A stretch of DNA of 64,000 nt from an uncultured Chloroflexales bacterium (GTDB taxonomy: Bacteria > Chloroflexota > Chloroflexia > Chloroflexales > Chloroflexaceae), in the NCBI GenBank assembly GCA_937918935.1, contig CAKZSI010000004.1:1-64000 (forward strand). Direction: 5' to 3'. The notes under the pieces are model-generated. The model searched no databases and had not been told where the DNA came from. It saw nothing but the letters and a program-made list of their open reading frames with translations. The translations under genes and the position numbers were made by a program. Positions 6,324 through 61,960 of the stretch are shown one piece after another; the first letter of the stretch is position 1; every line of letters begins with the position of its first letter.

Positions 6324-6353
6324 GGGAGGGCTGCACCCTCCCACACCCTCCCT
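6324..6353. repeat. GGGAGGGC..GCCCTCCC module between convergent genes
   Basis: GGGAGGGCTGCACCCTCCC followed by ACACCCTCCC. It sits between the convergent hydrolase and pucC genes, a position where a bidirectional terminator would be useful. No T-run is present on either strand. Confidence 0.55.
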
Positions 6354-8672: not shown

Positions 8673-8693
8673 TGGGGAAACCTGGTTTCCCCA
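8673..8693. repeat. GGGGAAACC-N-GGTTTCCCC palindrome
   Basis: A perfect 21-bp palindrome centred on a T: TGGGGAAACC, T, GGTTTCCCCA. It lies 67 nt after the downstream alpha/beta hydrolase stop and before the regulator promoter. It belongs to the dispersed family seen about 18 times here. Confidence 0.75.
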
Positions 8694-16773: not shown

Positions 16774-16890
16774 TGGGGAAACTTTGTCTCCCCACGCCCC
16801 GCCAGACGGCCCGGAAGGGTGCGGGGAAACGAGGTTTCCCTGCACTCCCGTCGGACGGCCCGGAAGGGTTCGGGGAAACCCGATTTCCCC
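16774..16890. repeat. Three tandem 49-bp palindrome repeats
   Basis: Variants of the GGGGAAAC..GGTTTCCCC palindrome start at 16774, 16823 and 16872, exactly 49 bp apart, with a conserved GACGGCCCGGAAGGGT linker between them. The last copy ends 38 nt before the GTG of the PLP decarboxylase. The regular spacing suggests recent tandem amplification or a multi-site regulatory array. Confidence 0.75.
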
Positions 16891-18718: not shown

Positions 18719-20719
18719 ATGCGTAGAATTGTCGCCGACCTGATAGCCCTGCTTCTGGTTCTGACGACCGCCTTCTTCGGCCTCGGCCTGGTCTATTCTG
18801 GCCAGCGCAGCGCCGCCTTCGATGTTATGGCCCTGCCCGCGATGCTGCCCACCTCGGGGTTGCACGCAGTTGAAACCCTGGCCGATCGGCCGGGCTTCTT
18901 TCGCTGGACTATGGGGGAAGGGGTGCTGCAACCGCCCAATCCCGGCGGGCGCCTGGTCCTGCGCATGCGTCTCTCCAGCGGGATCGATGGCCCTACGCGC
19001 CTCGAACTTGCCGCGCGCGGCCTGTCACAACACTTTGTCGTGCATCCGGGCCTCCGTAAGTACTATGTGTTGCTGCCGCCGCACCCTGGTGAACGGCTCA
19101 CTCTTATCCTCCGCTCGCCACCTTTTGAGATCAAGGGACGCCAGCTTGGCGTGGTGGTGCAGAGCCTGCTGGTAAGCGGCCAGGAGCGCCCGCCAGCGGT
19201 TCTCTTTGCCGCGCTCTTCTTCGCCACGGTGAGCTGGTACGCGCTCCTGCGCCGTGCCGGGCTTTCCGCACCCCTGGCCGCCGCCGGGGTGCTCGGTTTG
19301 CAGATCGCCGCCTGCGCCTGGCAGGCCGCCGGGGCCTGGCGCTATGCCCTCCTCGGTAACCTGCTCTTCCTTGGCGGAAGCGGCGCCGTCGGCGCCCTGC
19401 TGATCGGGCGCTTCTGGCCGCCCCTGCCGCCGCCGATCTGGCCGCCGCTTGCCTGGAGCCGCCAGGACAGGCTGGCGTCTGGCGGGTTGCTGGCGCTGGC
19501 CCTGGCCTGCTGTCTGCCCTGGCTCACGGCGCCCGACCCGGTGGGCGATCTGGAGCTGTCGGCGCGCTGGATGGGCTTTATGATGGAGGGCCGCTTCGCC
19601 GATCTCTCGTACTATGGGTGCGACTACCTGCCTATCAACCTGGCCACGCTCTGGCTGCTCGGCCCGCTGGTATCGCTCCTGGGGGGCACATACTACGATC
19701 CGCTGCCGGCGGTCACCCGCGTCATCGTCAAACTGCCCAGCCTGGTGGCCTTGTTGTTCAGCGTGGCGCTGATCTACCACTGGGCGCGCCGGCACGGCGG
19801 TGTGGCGCGAGCGGCGCTGTTCGGCGCGCTCTACATCGTGGCGCCGCCGGTGTGGATCAACGTGGCCTGGTGGGGTCAGGTGGACGTGCTGCTGACCCTG
19901 CCGATGGCGGCGGCGGTCATCTGGCTCGACCGCTGGCAGGGGCGCGGGAGCTGGCTGGCCTGGGCCACGGGGCTACTGATCAAGGCCCAGGCGATCGTCC
20001 TGGCGCCCTTGATCTACGCGGCCACCCTGCGGCGCTACGGCCCCCGCGGCTTCGTCGAGGGCATAGTGATCGCCCTCAGCCTGATCGTCGCCCTCAGTAC
20101 GCCGCTGGTGCTGCTCGGTGAAGGACCGGGGCTGTACCAGACTGTAGTGGGATCGGTGGGGCGCTTTCCGCAGGTGACCAACCGGGCCTACAACCTGTGG
20201 TGGCTGGTGGTTGGCGATCAGCGCGTCTCTGACCTGACAGAGTGGGCGGGGATGAGCTATCGCACCCTGGGCTTTCTGCTCGTTGGCACGGCGGCGCTGC
20301 TGGTGATGCTGGCCGTGCTGCGCCATCCCCATCCGCACACCTACCTGGTAGGCGCGGCAGCGCTGGGGCTGGCCTTTTTTACCCTGCCGACGCAGATCCA
20401 CGAACGCTACGCCTTCTTTGCCCTGCCCTTCCTCCTTCTGGCCTCCGCCGTCGATCCACGCCTGCTGCTGCCCTACGCGGTGCTGGTGCTCAACGCAACG
20501 ATCAACATCTTTGGCGCCATTGGCAGCTTCACGCCGGATCTCATGCCGCTGATCCGCGACAGCGCGTTGCCGGAAGTGGTGGCCTGGGTGAACCTGGCAA
20601 CCCTGATAGGATTACTGATCTATCTTTATATCGCTCCACAGGGTAGCACCGTCTCCCAGAGGTGGGACAATGACGGGCAAACCAGGTTTCCCCGCGCCCC
20701 TGCCGGCAGAATTTCGTAG
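18719..20719 (+). CDS. GT-C-type membrane glycosyltransferase
   Basis: A 666-residue multi-pass membrane protein with about a dozen hydrophobic segments after an N-terminal signal-anchor and a ~120-residue extracytoplasmic domain. WWGQVDVLLTLPM and QIHERYAFFALPF are typical of polyprenyl-sugar-dependent GT-C enzymes of the mannosyltransferase/GT39-GT87 clan. It probably moves a sugar from a lipid carrier onto a surface glycan. The ATG at 18719 lies 10 nt after a TATAAT. The last ~20 codons read through a copy of the dispersed palindrome (20674-20694), so the natural C-terminus may have been extended by repeat insertion. Confidence 0.75.
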   Translation: MRRIVADLIALLLVLTTAFFGLGLVYSGQRSAAFDVMALPAMLPTSGLHAVETLADRPGFFRWTMGEGVLQPPNPGGRLVLRMRLSSGIDGPTRLELAARGLSQHFVVHPGLRKYYVLLPPHPGERLTLILRSPPFEIKGRQLGVVVQSLLVSGQERPPAVLFAALFFATVSWYALLRRAGLSAPLAAAGVLGLQIAACAWQAAGAWRYALLGNLLFLGGSGAVGALLIGRFWPPLPPPIWPPLAWSRQDRLASGGLLALALACCLPWLTAPDPVGDLELSARWMGFMMEGRFADLSYYGCDYLPINLATLWLLGPLVSLLGGTYYDPLPAVTRVIVKLPSLVALLFSVALIYHWARRHGGVARAALFGALYIVAPPVWINVAWWGQVDVLLTLPMAAAVIWLDRWQGRGSWLAWATGLLIKAQAIVLAPLIYAATLRRYGPRGFVEGIVIALSLIVALSTPLVLLGEGPGLYQTVVGSVGRFPQVTNRAYNLWWLVVGDQRVSDLTEWAGMSYRTLGFLLVGTAALLVMLAVLRHPHPHTYLVGAAALGLAFFTLPTQIHERYAFFALPFLLLASAVDPRLLLPYAVLVLNATINIFGAIGSFTPDLMPLIRDSALPEVVAWVNLATLIGLLIYLYIAPQGSTVSQRWDNDGQTRFPRAPAGRIS

Positions 20720-26746: not shown

Positions 26747-26820
26747 CGCCCCCTCCCTGACCCTCTCCTGGCAGGGGCGTGGCCAAACCTGGTTGCCCCA
26801 CCCTCCTCCAACCAGCGGTG
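26747..26820. repeat. Composite repeat, module plus palindrome
   Basis: CCCCCTCCCTGACCCTC, then GGCAGGGGCG, then the palindrome variant TGGCCAAACCTGGTTGCCCC (26780-26800) and CCCTCCTCCAACC. It shows the usual order of the composite element, downstream of coaBC. Confidence 0.6.
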
Positions 26821-30750: not shown

Positions 30751-30773
30751 GTGGGGAAACCAGTCTTTCCCAC
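30751..30773. repeat. Dispersed palindrome copy
   Basis: GTGGGGAAACC then AGTCTTTCCCAC, a diverged copy of the GGGGAAACC/GGTTTCCCC palindrome between the two GT-C genes. Confidence 0.55.
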
Positions 30774-35075: not shown

Positions 35076-35098
35076 GTGGGTAAACCGGGGTTCCTCAC
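35076..35098. repeat. Dispersed palindrome copy
   Basis: GTGGGTAAACC..GGTTCCTCAC, a diverged copy of the palindrome family, placed in the leader of the methyltransferase gene. Confidence 0.5.
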
Positions 35099-35187
35099 TC
35101 CTCGGCTCGCCGGGAGGGCTTCGCTTTCCACCACGGTTGTGCGGCCGGTCAGCACCGGCCAGACAGGCAAGCGCCGACCAGGCATGT

Positions 35188-38930: not shown

Positions 38931-39029
38931 CGTAACCTCGTCAGTTCGCAATAGCGCCGCCCCGCACAGGGGGCCGAGAGCCGCAGGCCCCCGGAAAGAG
39001 ACTCTATTTCCTTTTGTCTGGGAAGAGCT

Positions 39030-39190
39030 ACACCCTCCCGGACCCTTCTCCTCAGGGCGAGGGCGTGAGGAAACCTGGTTTCCCCACCCTCTCCAGGCGA
39101 CCGAGGACAGAGCGTTCGTGGAAGGACCGCGCCCTCCCGGACCCTGCTCCTCAGGCAGGGGCGTGGAACAACCTGGTTTCCCCACCGTTC
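39030..39190. repeat. Two tandem composite repeat units
   Basis: Two ~98-bp units each consist of a CCCTCCCGGACCCT..CTCCTCAGG module followed by the palindrome: TGAGGAAACC-T-GGTTTCCCCA at 39066-39086 and TGGAACAACC-T-GGTTTCCCCA at 39164-39184. They lie between the small protein gene and the M16 gene and best show the whole composite element. Confidence 0.75.
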
Positions 39191-44376: not shown

Positions 44377-44466
44377 GATGGGGAAAGCCAATCGCCCCAT
44401 CACCCCCCAACCGGCGAGGGCAACGCCTGCCAGGACGGCATGAGAACGGGGAAACCAGATTTCCCC
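44377..44466. repeat. Two dispersed palindromes between galK and selB
   Basis: GATGGGG..CCCCATC at 44377-44401 (degenerate centre) and GGGGAAACCAGATTTCCCC at 44448-44466 (one mismatch). They lie just after the selB stop, about 70 nt apart. Confidence 0.6.
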
Positions 44467-46371: not shown

Positions 46372-46461
46372 CGGGGAAACCCGGTTTCCCCGGGCCCCTG
46401 CCCATAGGAGAGCGGCGGCTCCGCCGCAGGTTAGATGGGGGCAGGGAAACCAGGTTTCCCC
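46372..46461. repeat. Two palindromes in the selB-rph divergent spacer
   Basis: CGGGGAAACC-C-GGTTTCCCCG at 46372-46392 is a perfect 21-bp palindrome; GGGAAACC-A-GGTTTCCC at 46444-46460 is a second copy. The GGGGC-rich run to 46545 contains GCCCCTGCCC repeats. Confidence 0.7.
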
Positions 46462-47413: not shown

Positions 47414-48646
47414 ATGAACGAACCGCACAACCGCTCAGAAGCGCTGCGTCATCTTCAACTCGGCATGGCCCTGGAACGGGCCAACCGGCTCAACGAGGCC
47501 GTGGCCCACTACCGCCGGGCCATCGCGGCCGATCCGCTGCAAGCCGAGGCTCACAATGCCCTTGGCTTCTACTACCAGCGCGCGGGGCTCCTGGCCAAAG
47601 CCGTTGAGGAGTTTCGCCTGGTTGCCAGTCTTGAGGGCAGCTTTCTTGCCTATTTCAACCTCGGCTACGTGCTGGTTGAGCTTGAACGCTACGACGAAGC
47701 CCTTGACGCCTTCGAGCACTGCCTCAAACTCGCCCCTGATGACCCGGCGGCCCACTTCGAACTGGCGCTGATCCATCTCGCGCGCCACGAATATGCCCAA
47801 GCGCTGGCCCATCTCGACCTGCCGTTGCAGAGCTACCCGCAGGATTGGGAGGTGCATAACCTGCACGGCCGCTGCCTGCTTGGCCTGCGCCGCTACGACG
47901 AGGCCACCGCCGCCTTCGGGCGTGCCCTGTTGCTGGCCAATTCGCCGGCCGCGATGGCCGAGGTGGTTGACAACCTCACCAGCGTCGAACGCCACCGCGA
48001 ATTTCGCAGCCTGGCCAATATCAAGGATCAGTTGTATGCCGAAGACGGGGTGATCTACCTCGGCTCAACCGGCGACGACGGGTTGCAACTCCGCGAGACT
48101 CAGGATTACCACTTCACCTATCCTAACATTGGCACCACCCTGCAACGGCTGATCGCCCTGGTTGCCAGCACCGACTGGCGCTTCAGCGCCGTCGTCGCCG
48201 CCGACGGCCTCGCCCGGCCACTGGCAGGCGCGCTCGCCGAATTGCTCCAGATTCCGCTCCGCAGCGCCGAAGAACTCAGTGCCGACGACCGGGCCCTGCT
48301 CGTCTTCGCCGTGGCACGCGACGTCGAACTGCTCCTGCTCAGCGTCGAACGGCTGCCCTGCGCCGTCACCGCCTTCTGCCTGGGTCTCAACTGGAACCGC
48401 CACACCAAAGTGTTGCCCGACGTCGTCGGCATTGCCGCCCGCGGCGCCTGCAGCGTGCCCTGGGAAGCGACGCTACGGCGCCTGCGGGCCGAAGGCGCGC
48501 CGCAGCCAGCGATTGCCGCCTGCGTCGCCGAGGCCGCCGCGGCCATCATTACCGCCGTGCGCGAAACGCCCCTTGATACCAATCTCCCTCGCCAGATCCG
48601 CTACTACACCCGCAACCACCGCCGCGTTAACCTCGGCGGTCGCTGA
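47414..48646 (+). CDS. TPR protein with unrecognised C-terminal domain
   Basis: A 410-residue soluble protein. Residues ~10-190 hold five TPR units (LQLGMALERANRLNEAVAHYRRAIAADP.., AEAHNALGFYYQRAGLLAKAVEEFRLVA..). The C-terminal ~200 residues (IYLGSTGDDGLQLRETQDYHFT.., WRFSAVVAADGLARPLAGALAE, LGLNWNRHTKVLPDVVGIAAR) form an alpha/beta domain I do not recognise. Its VVAADGLARPLAGALAELL stretch is slightly phosphoribosyltransferase-like. The ATG at 47414 is chosen; an in-frame alternative is not obvious. Confidence 0.75.
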   Translation: MNEPHNRSEALRHLQLGMALERANRLNEAVAHYRRAIAADPLQAEAHNALGFYYQRAGLLAKAVEEFRLVASLEGSFLAYFNLGYVLVELERYDEALDAFEHCLKLAPDDPAAHFELALIHLARHEYAQALAHLDLPLQSYPQDWEVHNLHGRCLLGLRRYDEATAAFGRALLLANSPAAMAEVVDNLTSVERHREFRSLANIKDQLYAEDGVIYLGSTGDDGLQLRETQDYHFTYPNIGTTLQRLIALVASTDWRFSAVVAADGLARPLAGALAELLQIPLRSAEELSADDRALLVFAVARDVELLLLSVERLPCAVTAFCLGLNWNRHTKVLPDVVGIAARGACSVPWEATLRRLRAEGAPQPAIAACVAEAAAAIITAVRETPLDTNLPRQIRYYTRNHRRVNLGGR

Positions 48647-48650
48647 GATT

Positions 48651-48670
48651 GAGGAAACCAGGTTTCCCCG
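48651..48670. repeat. Dispersed palindrome copy
   Basis: GAGGAAACC-A-GGTTTCCCCG, starting 4 nt after the TPR gene stop. A diverged GGGAGAACT..GCCCTCC module follows at 48754. Confidence 0.6.
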
Positions 48671-49898: not shown

Positions 49899-50040
49899 GG
49901 GAGGGCTGCGCCTTCTCAGACCCTCCCCTGACGCAGGGTGGGGAAACCAGGTTTCCCCACCCCCTCCGAACGTTAAAGTGGGGGAGAACCATGTCTTAAG
50001 GAGCATCCCTGGGAGGACGGCGCCCTCCCGGACCCTCCCC
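49899..50040. repeat. Composite repeat with perfect palindrome, plus a second module
   Basis: GGGAGGGCTGCGCCTTCTC, GACCCTCCCC, then the perfect palindrome TGGGGAAACC-A-GGTTTCCCCA at 49939-49959. A further module (GGGAGGACGGCGCCCTCCC, GACCCTCCCC) is at 50011-50040. It lies between uvsE and the cyclophilin gene and is one of the cleanest copies. Confidence 0.75.
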
Positions 50041-50939: not shown

Positions 50940-50960
50940 TGGGGAAACCCGGTTTCCCCA
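50940..50960. repeat. Perfect dispersed palindrome
   Basis: TGGGGAAACC-C-GGTTTCCCCA, 48 nt after the cyclophilin stop, between convergent genes. Confidence 0.7.
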
Positions 50961-55284: not shown

Positions 55285-55320
55285 TCCTGGGAGAACTACG
55301 CCCTCCCGGACTGCCCGGAG
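55285..55320. repeat. GGGAGAACT..GCCCTCCC module
   Basis: CTGGGAGAACTACGCCCTCC then CGGACTGCCCGG, a copy of the spacer module between the GT2 and the fusion gene. A sister copy at 53228 shares the GGAGCATT tail. Confidence 0.5.
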
Positions 55321-59766: not shown

Positions 59767-61704
59767 ATGCTGCACCCAACCCTGCGACGTTCCACGCACA
59801 TCCTGATCGCGCTGATGGTCCTGGCAACGTTACCTTCCCTTCCCGTTGCGCGCGCCGCCCCAACGATTGTCGGCGATGGCACGCCCGGCAGTTGCACCGA
59901 AGCAAGCCTGCGCGCGGCGCTGGTGGGCGGCGGCAGCATCAGTTTCAACTGCGGGGGCGCACCGGTGAGCATTACGGTCAGCGCGCCCTTCGAGATCACC
60001 GCGCCCGAGACGACGATTGACGGGGGCGGGCTGATTACCCTGCGGGGCCAGAATAGCCGTATCATCGCCCATCGCACCACCGGCGCGCAGGGAAGCAGCA
60101 CACTCACCCTGCGGAACCTCACGATCACCGGCGGGCGGGCCAGCGGCGCCAATGACGCCGCCAACGGCGGCGCCATCGCCAGCATCTTTGCCGCTGCCAA
60201 TCCGGCCTTCAAACCGGCGCTCGTCGTGGAACATGTCACCTTCGAAGATAACGATTCCACGGTCACCAGCCTGACGCGCGGCGACGCCTATGACTACGGG
60301 GGCGGGGCGATCTACTCTCAGGGCGGATCGGTGACGGTGCGGAACTGTCGCTTCATCGGCAACGACGCCAACAACGCCGCCGGCGGCGCGATCCACGTCC
60401 TCCAGAGCGGTCTGGTGATTGAGGACAGCGAATTCAACAACAACAGCGCCATCGGCACGCGGCCGCAGGACAGCCTGGGCGGCGCGATCTACATTGACGG
60501 TCTGGGCGGCGAGAACGGCCTGTTCCGGGTGGTGCGCAGCGACTTTACCAACAACCGCGCCTACAACTCGGGCGGCGCGATCTACGTGAACATGTACGAG
60601 AACAGCAGCCGCGCCGAAGTGCTGGACAGCGCGTTTGTCGAAAACGCGGTGATCGGCGGCGAGCGCGCCCAGGGCGGGGCCATCGGCGGCGGCGGATCGA
60701 GCCTGGGCGGGGCGACCGGCAACCCCGCCATCGTGATCGAGCGCAGCCTCTTCAGCGCCAACAGCGTCCGGCGCACGCCCGGGGCGGGCGGCAATCCCAA
60801 CGAAGACGGTTCGGGCGGGGCGCTGGCCTTTCCCCAACGGGCGCGGCTGCGGATCGTCAACAGCACCTTCGCAGGCAACCGGGCCGCCGGCGCGAGCTTC
60901 AACGCTAACGGCGGCGCACTTTACGTGGTGAACCACAGCGACCCCTTCGAAATCGTCAACAGCACCTTCGCCAATAACAGCGCCGGCTGGGTCGGCGGGG
61001 CGATCAGCAATAGCCAGATCAACGGCCAGCCCGGCGGCCGGGTGCGCAATACGCTCTTCGTCAACAACACTGCCGATAACGGCCCCAACGACTGGAACAT
61101 TCAGCAGCACTGCTCCTCGGAACTGGCCCACGATGACCGGAGCCTGCAGTTCCCCCCACGCCTGACCGGGGGCAACTTCTTCAACGACGTGACCTGCTTC
61201 CAGGGCAAGAGCGCACCCAACCAGACGGGCGATCCCCAGTTCCGCGACCCGCAACTGCAGGCCCTGGCCGACAATGGCGGCCCGACCCGGACCATGGCCA
61301 TCACCGCCGCCAGCCCGGCCTTCAACGCCGGGGCCGATTGCCCGCCGACCGACCAGCGCGGCGTCGCCCGCCCGCAGGGGGCAGGCTGCGACCTGGGGGC
61401 CTTTGAGGTGATTGCGGCCCTGGCGGTGGCGCCGGGGCTGATCGGCGTCAATGCCGCCAATCCCGCCCTCGACGTGCGGGGCGACGGCTTCACGGCCAGC
61501 AGCGTCGTACAGGTCAACGGCGCCGACCGCCCGACGACTTTCATCAGCCCCCTGGCGCTTCGGGTTGACCTCGCGCCCGCCGACGTAGCTGCTCCCGGCG
61601 CGCTCCGCATCAGCGTGCGCGGACCCGGGGAAAGCCTGGCTGGCGCCGAGGTGCGCGTGGTGGAGGAACTGCGGCGCGTCCATCTGCCGCTGGTGCGGCG
61701 CTGA
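59767..61704 (+). CDS. Secreted beta-helix protein with choice-of-anchor Q domain
   Basis: A 645-residue exported protein. Signal peptide at ~1-30 (HILIALMVLATLPSLPVARAA), then a right-handed parallel beta-helix with many GGAI(Y/H) and F.NN.A turns (~45-450). The NGGPTRTMAITAASPAFNAG and GVARPQGAGCDLGAFE segments are the choice-of-anchor Q/Pmp-like signature, and an IPT/TIG-like Ig domain (~555-630) follows. It ends in HLPLVRR, a tail common in exported Chloroflexota proteins. It is probably a cell-surface or sheath protein. The ATG at 59767 has AGGAAAGG about 4-8 nt upstream. Confidence 0.85.
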   Translation: MLHPTLRRSTHILIALMVLATLPSLPVARAAPTIVGDGTPGSCTEASLRAALVGGGSISFNCGGAPVSITVSAPFEITAPETTIDGGGLITLRGQNSRIIAHRTTGAQGSSTLTLRNLTITGGRASGANDAANGGAIASIFAAANPAFKPALVVEHVTFEDNDSTVTSLTRGDAYDYGGGAIYSQGGSVTVRNCRFIGNDANNAAGGAIHVLQSGLVIEDSEFNNNSAIGTRPQDSLGGAIYIDGLGGENGLFRVVRSDFTNNRAYNSGGAIYVNMYENSSRAEVLDSAFVENAVIGGERAQGGAIGGGGSSLGGATGNPAIVIERSLFSANSVRRTPGAGGNPNEDGSGGALAFPQRARLRIVNSTFAGNRAAGASFNANGGALYVVNHSDPFEIVNSTFANNSAGWVGGAISNSQINGQPGGRVRNTLFVNNTADNGPNDWNIQQHCSSELAHDDRSLQFPPRLTGGNFFNDVTCFQGKSAPNQTGDPQFRDPQLQALADNGGPTRTMAITAASPAFNAGADCPPTDQRGVARPQGAGCDLGAFEVIAALAVAPGLIGVNAANPALDVRGDGFTASSVVQVNGADRPTTFISPLALRVDLAPADVAAPGALRISVRGPGESLAGAEVRVVEELRRVHLPLVRR

Positions 61705-61775: not shown

Positions 61776-61960
61776 GGGGTTCCAGGATGGGCTGCGCTCT
61801 CCTGGCTCCTCCCCTCAGACAGGGGCGTGGGGAACCCAGAGTTCACCACGCTCCTCCGACCGAGCGACGAACGCGGGTTCCTGGGAAGGCCGGGTCCTTC
61901 CGGACCAGTCCCTCAAGCAGGGGGATGGGGAAACCTGGTTTCTCCATCCCCTGCCAACCG
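61776..61960. repeat. Two composite repeat units in the leuS leader
   Basis: Unit 1 (61776-61860): GGGCTGCGCTCTCC, CTCCTCCCCTCAGACAGGGG, and a degenerate palindrome GGGGAACC..GTTCACC. Unit 2 (61881-61960): GGGAAGGCCGGGTCCTTCC, GGACCAGTCCCTCAAGCAGG, then the palindrome GGGGAAACCTGGTTTCTCC extended outward by GGGGAT/ATCCCC to 31 bp with one mismatch (61921-61951). Both would be transcribed into the leader RNA. Confidence 0.75.

Follow-up and report, generated by a model that had tools for sequence, protein, structure and literature searches.

What is the palindromic sequence that recurs between the genes of this Chloroflexales genome, and how did it get there? The window (the whole 64-kb stretch of DNA analysed here) carries at positions 39,030 to 39,190 two neighbouring copies of a composite palindrome, and relatives of it are found throughout the remainder. 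REP-like repeats are among the commonest repeats of bacteria, and the mode of their spread is still largely inferred.

Two hairpin modules, alone and combined

The first of two modules, module B, has the form GGGGAAACC-N-GGTTTCCCC. It occurs 19 times in the window at up to three mismatches, where 0.01 copies are expected from dinucleotide shuffles of the 64 kb. Its own genome (G000; 4.60 Mb in 85 contigs, 99.99% complete) contains 187 exact copies and none of a reversed-pattern control. The multi-copy palindrome proposed from the letters of the window is thus real, and the copy number is far from the near-random figure elsewhere in the genome that had been named as evidence against it. Module A had been described with a one-base loop, in which form it is not enriched (2 copies versus 2.15 expected). 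With a three-base loop, GGGAGGGC-NNN-GCCCTCCC, it is a genuine family of 172 exact copies in the same genome (control 0). The loop of module B is one or three bases long. In the 852-kb sample of the genome (window included) and in the sister genomes, perfect palindromes with 9-bp arms exceed the background at odd spacers only, with B and A foremost among their families. The sample holds 134 copies of B at up to two mismatches, and 106 of its 506 spacers (21%) contain B at this threshold. About 18 of some 38 window spacers carry A and/or B at up to three mismatches, which agrees with the earlier estimate of nearly every second spacer.

The arms had been said to vary together and the central base to be free, and both statements hold. 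Among two-mismatch copies in the own genome, compensated pairs number 7 versus 1.0 expected for B (p = 7e-5) and 9 versus 1.3 for A (p = 7e-6), in tests that take the copies as independent where descent may be shared, above all in the high-copy genome. Pairing continues outside the B core: at positions 10-12 from the centre it amounts to 0.51, 0.55 and 0.43, whereas column composition predicts 0.40, 0.40 and 0.27. A compensated change can be seen directly at window position 48651, with AAACCAGGTTT here and AAGCCAGGCTT in the ortholog of G003 (an A-T to G-C stem pair). All four bases are found in the loop of B in G000 (A 11, C 10, T 8, G 6). Moreover, the loop base was unlike in all 11 aligned orthologous pairs from G000 and G002, two of which come from tandem sites, so that it is not certain which copies correspond. 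Loop hypermutation or inversion would account for these differences.

For 28 of the 134 B copies, module A lies upstream at a centre-to-centre distance of 38-50 bp, compared with 2 at the control distance. The spacing in the composite is about 43 bp and its oriented consensus reads TTCCTGGGAGGGC-NNN-GCCCTCCCAGACCCTCCCC..AGGCAGGGG-nnT-GGGGAAACC-N-GGTTTCCCC-Ann-CCCCTGCC. Tandem copies are found at 49, 69-70 and 98 bp, and the highest-copy genome contains tandem units of 69-70 bp. Further mosaic modules stand beside the element in loci L016-L093 of SRR5214706_bin.4. They comprise GGTTCGACAGGCTCACCGC between the outer stem and the core, a hairpin CATGCGGCTGCGCCGCACAACGCC whose stem sequence varies while pairing is kept, and CCCTCCCCC-NNN-GGGGGAGGG. 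A further dispersed repeat, TATACCAATTACCGTTGATGATGCCGCATTGC...GGCAATCCACAATCCAAAATCTAAAATC, is about 100 bp long and unrelated to A and B (L050, L176, G004 C50).

Copies in the window

The copies are listed below by window position, with the strand (+) where one is assigned.

6324..6342, module A without B, 1 mismatch (pattern match)
8674..8692, module B, exact core; folds with a 9-bp stem and 3-base loop, z -2.2
16775..16890, three B copies at 48-49 bp spacing (16775, 16823, 16872; pattern match)
20675..20693, module B, 1 mismatch, within the final 45 bp of the gene stopping at 20719 (pattern match and gene call)
26781..26799, module B, 3 mismatches, degenerate A just upstream (pattern match; families D1, D7)
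30753..30771, module B, 3 mismatches (pattern match)
35078..35096, module B, 3 mismatches, degenerate A at 35112 (pattern match)
39021..39085, +, decayed A-B composite: A 39021-39039 (3 mismatches), B 39067-39085 (1 mismatch)
39120..39183, +, decayed A-B composite: A 39120-39138 (2 mismatches), B 39165-39183 (3 mismatches)
44448..44466, module B, 1 mismatch (pattern match)
46373..46461, two B copies in a divergent spacer: 46373 exact, 46443 one mismatch (pattern match)
48651..48669, +, module B, 1 mismatch, 4 bp past the TGA stop (CTGA) of gene 47414-48646
49899..49958, +, A-B composite: A 49899-49917 (2 mismatches), B 49940-49958 (exact); fold z -3.7
50011..50029, module A, 1 mismatch (pattern match)
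50941..50959, module B, exact, convergent spacer (pattern match)
55289..55307, module A without B, 2 mismatches (pattern match)
61883..61945, +, A-B composite in a convergent spacer: A 61883-61901 (3 mismatches), B 61927-61945 (1 mismatch); fold z -3.1

All copies singled out by the sequence-only reading are present: those at 8674, 46373, 49940 and 50941 are exact, those at 39067 and 61927 have one mismatch, and the one at 39165 is decayed, with three. At the focal locus the composite 39120..39183 is a second copy, tandem to 39021..39085 at 98 bp, and the focal pair (39030-39190) has no folding advantage over shuffled sequences (z +0.8 and -0.3). The B copies at 46373 and 46443 are both conserved in sister species, with differing centre bases. 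Since the copy at 20675-20693 provides the final codons of the gene that stops at 20719, the C-terminus of a host protein is written by the repeat here. A different kind of repetition is found at 60141-60587, where gene 59767-61704 contains imperfect 39-bp repeats with GGAI-type units as in beta-helix surface proteins.

Distribution and turnover among sister species

Module B is restricted almost entirely to a single Chloroflexota genus. Its exact core occurs 9, 135, 187, 282 and 1306 times in five sister species, a more than 100-fold difference between genomes of similar size, all of them drafts whose assembly may lose repeats, so that recent copies may be under-represented. The five species rank alike for exact module A (7, 85, 172, 293 and 1095), which is also present at 16-80 copies in a few other Chloroflexaceae genera. 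Among 82 genomes of the order, the inner 15 bp of the B core are found 11, 188, 265, 343 and 1470 times in the five species of the genus, 17 times in one genome of another genus and 0-3 times elsewhere. A scan of named genomes led to the Chloroflexota, with matches in Chloroflexaceae bacterium SKW209 and SRR5214706_bin.4 and a few copies in Candidatus Viridilinea; viral contigs gave no match. The copy numbers and the restriction to the genus, in which A and B behave alike, speak for a mobile family. We favour, with a probability of roughly 0.68, a family of short mobile repeats that is confined to the genus, is non-autonomous, has hairpin ends and works in a REP/BIME- or PATE-like manner.

Comparison of orthologous spacers adds a view of turnover. 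Between the own genome and G002, in which the flanking genes are 88% identical, 165 spacers could be paired. Of the 40 that carry B here, 25 lack the core in G002 when as many as four mismatches are allowed, and the element-free orthologous spacers that the sequence-only reading had marked out as a check thus exist. A self-BLAST of 788 kb of the own genome revealed local duplications only and no dispersed repeat above about 180 bp, which excludes a long autonomous or full-length element from that part and, since no long dispersed repeats remain, indicates that the copies are old. Clean single insertions were likewise sought in the own species and given up: orthologous spacers do differ, but the junctions are blurred because of the age of the copies. 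The highest-copy genome, by comparison, has dispersed stretches of 100-430 bp that share 80-96% identity. Most copies are thus old and decaying in the species of the window and young in its highest-copy sister.

Could the palindromes instead be dyads to which a nucleoid or regulatory protein binds and which selection keeps in place, with the 19-bp core as the site of a dimer and the central base as a spacer? The pattern of divergence suits such a role, as orthologous G000/G002 copies are 91% identical in the stem and 64% in the flanks and the central base differs in every one of the 11 pairs. A binding site would, however, hardly range from 9 to 1306 copies within one genus of similar genome sizes, be present or absent at orthologous spacers, multiply in parallel with a second module, or possess the sharp end 15 bp beyond the core that young copies display (see below). 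In addition, the excess of compensated core variants preserves symmetry yet alters the site itself. We consider this explanation improbable.

Placement relative to genes

Using gene calls from a simple codon-usage script, 132 of the 134 B copies of the sample are intergenic, though genes make up 82% of the 852 kb. The repeat accounts for much of the intergenic DNA of these genomes and is for that reason relevant to their annotation. Convergent, co-directional and divergent spacers all contain it, with a slightly higher density per kb in the convergent ones. Stop codons have 15 copies of B at a distance of up to 10 bp where 7.2 are expected, and start codons have none at this distance where 5.6 are expected. 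The preference for gene ends noted in the window is accordingly confirmed; it is modest in the own genome and striking in the young copies of the highest-copy genome.

Both this preference and the slight excess in convergent spacers, together with the fact that intact hairpins fold well, would be expected of RNA elements, namely hairpins of the transcript that originated or multiplied behind genes as intrinsic terminators or as stabilisers of the 3' end. Selection at the RNA level should nevertheless favour G-U over A-C on the sense strand, and the comparison was negative (198 versus 161 for B, p = 0.06; 63 versus 56 for A). Moreover, the orientation of the A-B composite relative to transcription is random (9 versus 9), 27% of the divergent spacers carry B, and a search of Rfam gave no match. 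RNA function as the origin of the family is, on this evidence, very unlikely.

The sharp end and the proposed insertion site

The young copies also speak for the mobile-family reading. In these, conservation starts abruptly at the C of CTGA-N-GTGAAMATA-N-GGGGAAACC, 15 bp ahead of hairpin B, as read from loci of SRR5214706_bin.4 (which probably represents the species of G004) and from one locus of G004. The base just outside the CTGA is random in 44 copies with a unique flank, taken from loci that had been chosen for their exact cores. An identical end precedes a second type of body, which begins with a CCCGC hairpin and has module A inside; the other end of the element has no sharp definition. 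The remnants of this end are still visible in G000, where CTGA stands exactly 13 bp before the core nine times against about one expected (e.g. CTGATATGGCTGT and CTGAGGTGAGCGT).

Among loci chosen for carrying exact cores, gene frames that enter the end in sense stop there in 16 of 16 cases, eight at the first TGA, eight at the second and none in the open third frame, for which the calculated chance is about 0.0015. In this way the repeat supplies stop codons to host genes. A small peptide encoded at the end motif (GAGGTGA followed by ATG) was a by-eye reading that we abandoned, as many copies have no ATG.

Orthologous positions in three sister genomes were located with a concatenated query. 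At 12 of 40 such positions the tetranucleotide agrees with CTGA in at least three bases (five are CTGA itself), where a uniform model predicts about two; conserved stop codons may provide part of the matches, and some of the 'empty' sites hold an older copy. Sites 13 and 22 are clear element-free examples. The data are suggestive of a CTGA that pre-exists at insertion sites, and, if it is indeed the target, landing on TGA stop codons would follow from it. At four sites both flanks could be aligned; there the high-copy genome carries inserts of about 140-420 bp, with junctions that are not base-exact, and no target duplication is evident at these four sites, given the blurred junctions. Given 9-1306 exact copies in one genus, the defined end of the young ones and matched sites that have no element, the rule of insertion is directly testable.

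Spread without a transposase, through template switching during replication, gene conversion and tandem duplication, would agree with the tandem copies at 49, 69-70 and 98 bp, with the identification of no cognate enzyme and, via template-switch correction of quasi-palindromes, with compensated stems and a highly variable loop base, but we give it little credence because it leaves unexplained the dispersal over hundreds of unlinked spacers, the constant terminal motif followed by unique flank and the CTGA at pre-insertion sites.

Comparison with known element classes

The elements were initially described as REP/BIME-like or MITE-like. The first part of that description stands, as they are short, extragenic, palindromic and mosaic with compensated stems, whereas a MITE in the strict sense, with terminal inverted repeats and a target duplication, receives little support: the defined end of young copies is a subterminal hairpin with a terminal tetranucleotide, and no duplication was visible at the few, blurred junctions that could be aligned on both sides. 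More specifically, the general definition of a REP describes them well (a short palindrome in 187 exact copies, with 132 of 134 intergenic), as does that of a BIME (the A-B composite at 38-50 bp and the 69-70 bp tandem units of the high-copy genome). With the REP/BIME elements that are associated with RAYT proteins they share extragenic palindromes of 20-40 bp, hundreds of copies and short loops, and also mosaic arrays, compensated stem variants and a strain-variable copy number (PMC3733652, PMC2817692, PMC6006769). In contrast to these, there are two unlike hairpins in the composite, no foot tag, no REPtron and an end motif CTGA-N-GTGAAMATA. GTAG, GTGG and CGTC tags at 0-3 nt from both hairpins were at or below expectation in three genomes, and no REPtron, i.e. 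a tnpA-REP gene flanked by copies, was found among the RAYT-like genes of five genomes. Within the Chloroflexota, Thermomicrobium roseum has GTAG-23 REPs and hundreds of GC-rich short palindromes tied to them (PMC3733652), which resembles the situation here; their consensus CCGSSCC(n3,4)GGSSCGG is another sequence, however, and the GTAG tag is absent from our family.

The PATEs of Haloquadratum are IS605-derived elements that contain no transposase; they have a palindrome close to the end and, at the terminus itself, a conserved oligonucleotide (PMC3119063). The likeness seems to extend to this oligonucleotide acting as a pre-existing target, to the lack of a duplication and to the heterogeneous bodies (PMC3119063). 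The differences are the host, a bacterial Chloroflexota genus, the number of up to 1306 exact cores per genome, the second end that is not sharp and the unrelated sequence. Similarly, IS608 of the IS200/IS605 group has a subterminal hairpin and inserts 3' of a tetranucleotide, TTAC, that stays on the left flank (PMC5934647), whereas the tetranucleotide would be CTGA here and no autonomous copy was found. Considering the failed tag test, the missing REPtron and the PATE-like anatomy at one end, we file the family as a REP/PATE-like variant outside the tagged REP superfamilies.

RAYT-like genes and the candidate enzyme

The subterminal hairpin, the seemingly pre-existing tetranucleotide and the absence of a duplication together make up the anatomy of single-strand transposition by Y1 HUH enzymes. 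By this mechanism the hairpin would be recognised as single-stranded DNA by an HUH (Y1) tyrosine transposase acting in trans, and the strand would insert 3' of CTGA (often a TGA stop preceded by C) with no target duplication. Local tandem duplication and loss of modules may afterwards have produced the mosaics. A more far-reaching proposal is that of a new lineage of single-strand-transposed hairpin elements, which would have CTGA as their target, would thereby land on TGA stops and replace the stop of the host gene, and would be mobilised by split-domain RAYT-like proteins of the genus; taken as a whole we regard it as tentative and rather unlikely.

The search for a RAYT-like transposase, suggested from the window alone, had a mixed outcome: the genus does have distant RAYT-like genes, but copies of the element flank none of them. 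PF01797 gave no match in four of the five genomes, whereas NF047646 detected split RAYT-like proteins or fragments in all five (full-length proteins score 61-64 bits, with a cut-off of 80), so that an initial statement that the genus has no RAYT was dropped. G003 and G004 have two each (full length where read) and G000, G001 and G002 have fragments, that of G000 being cut by a contig edge. Full-length genes thus occur in the two top-copy species; the other three yielded fragments only. The flanking DNA that was read contains neither A nor B nor the end motif, except for two degenerate B copies at a distance of about 2 kb from the fragment of G002 (L288). From the anatomy of the element and the correlation over the five genomes we infer that a RAYT-like protein mobilises it in trans.

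Other sources of the enzyme were also considered. Y1_Tnp matched the split RAYT-like genes only, which have no element ends, and neither a parent transposon nor a matching or autonomous IS605-type element was found. A search for an IS91-like Y2 transposase gave no match, which carries no information, as control genomes gave none either. The RAYT-like Y1 HUH proteins themselves (L282:727-1329, L280:853-1692, L285:967-1764 and L286) contain in-frame insertions between the HUH and tyrosine motifs, which hide them from the Pfam Y1_Tnp model. These insertions encode perfect hairpins of other families: GGCGGGTTTGAAACCCGCC, GGGACGCAGCGCGCTGCGTCCC and GACGGCCCGGCGGGCCGTC.
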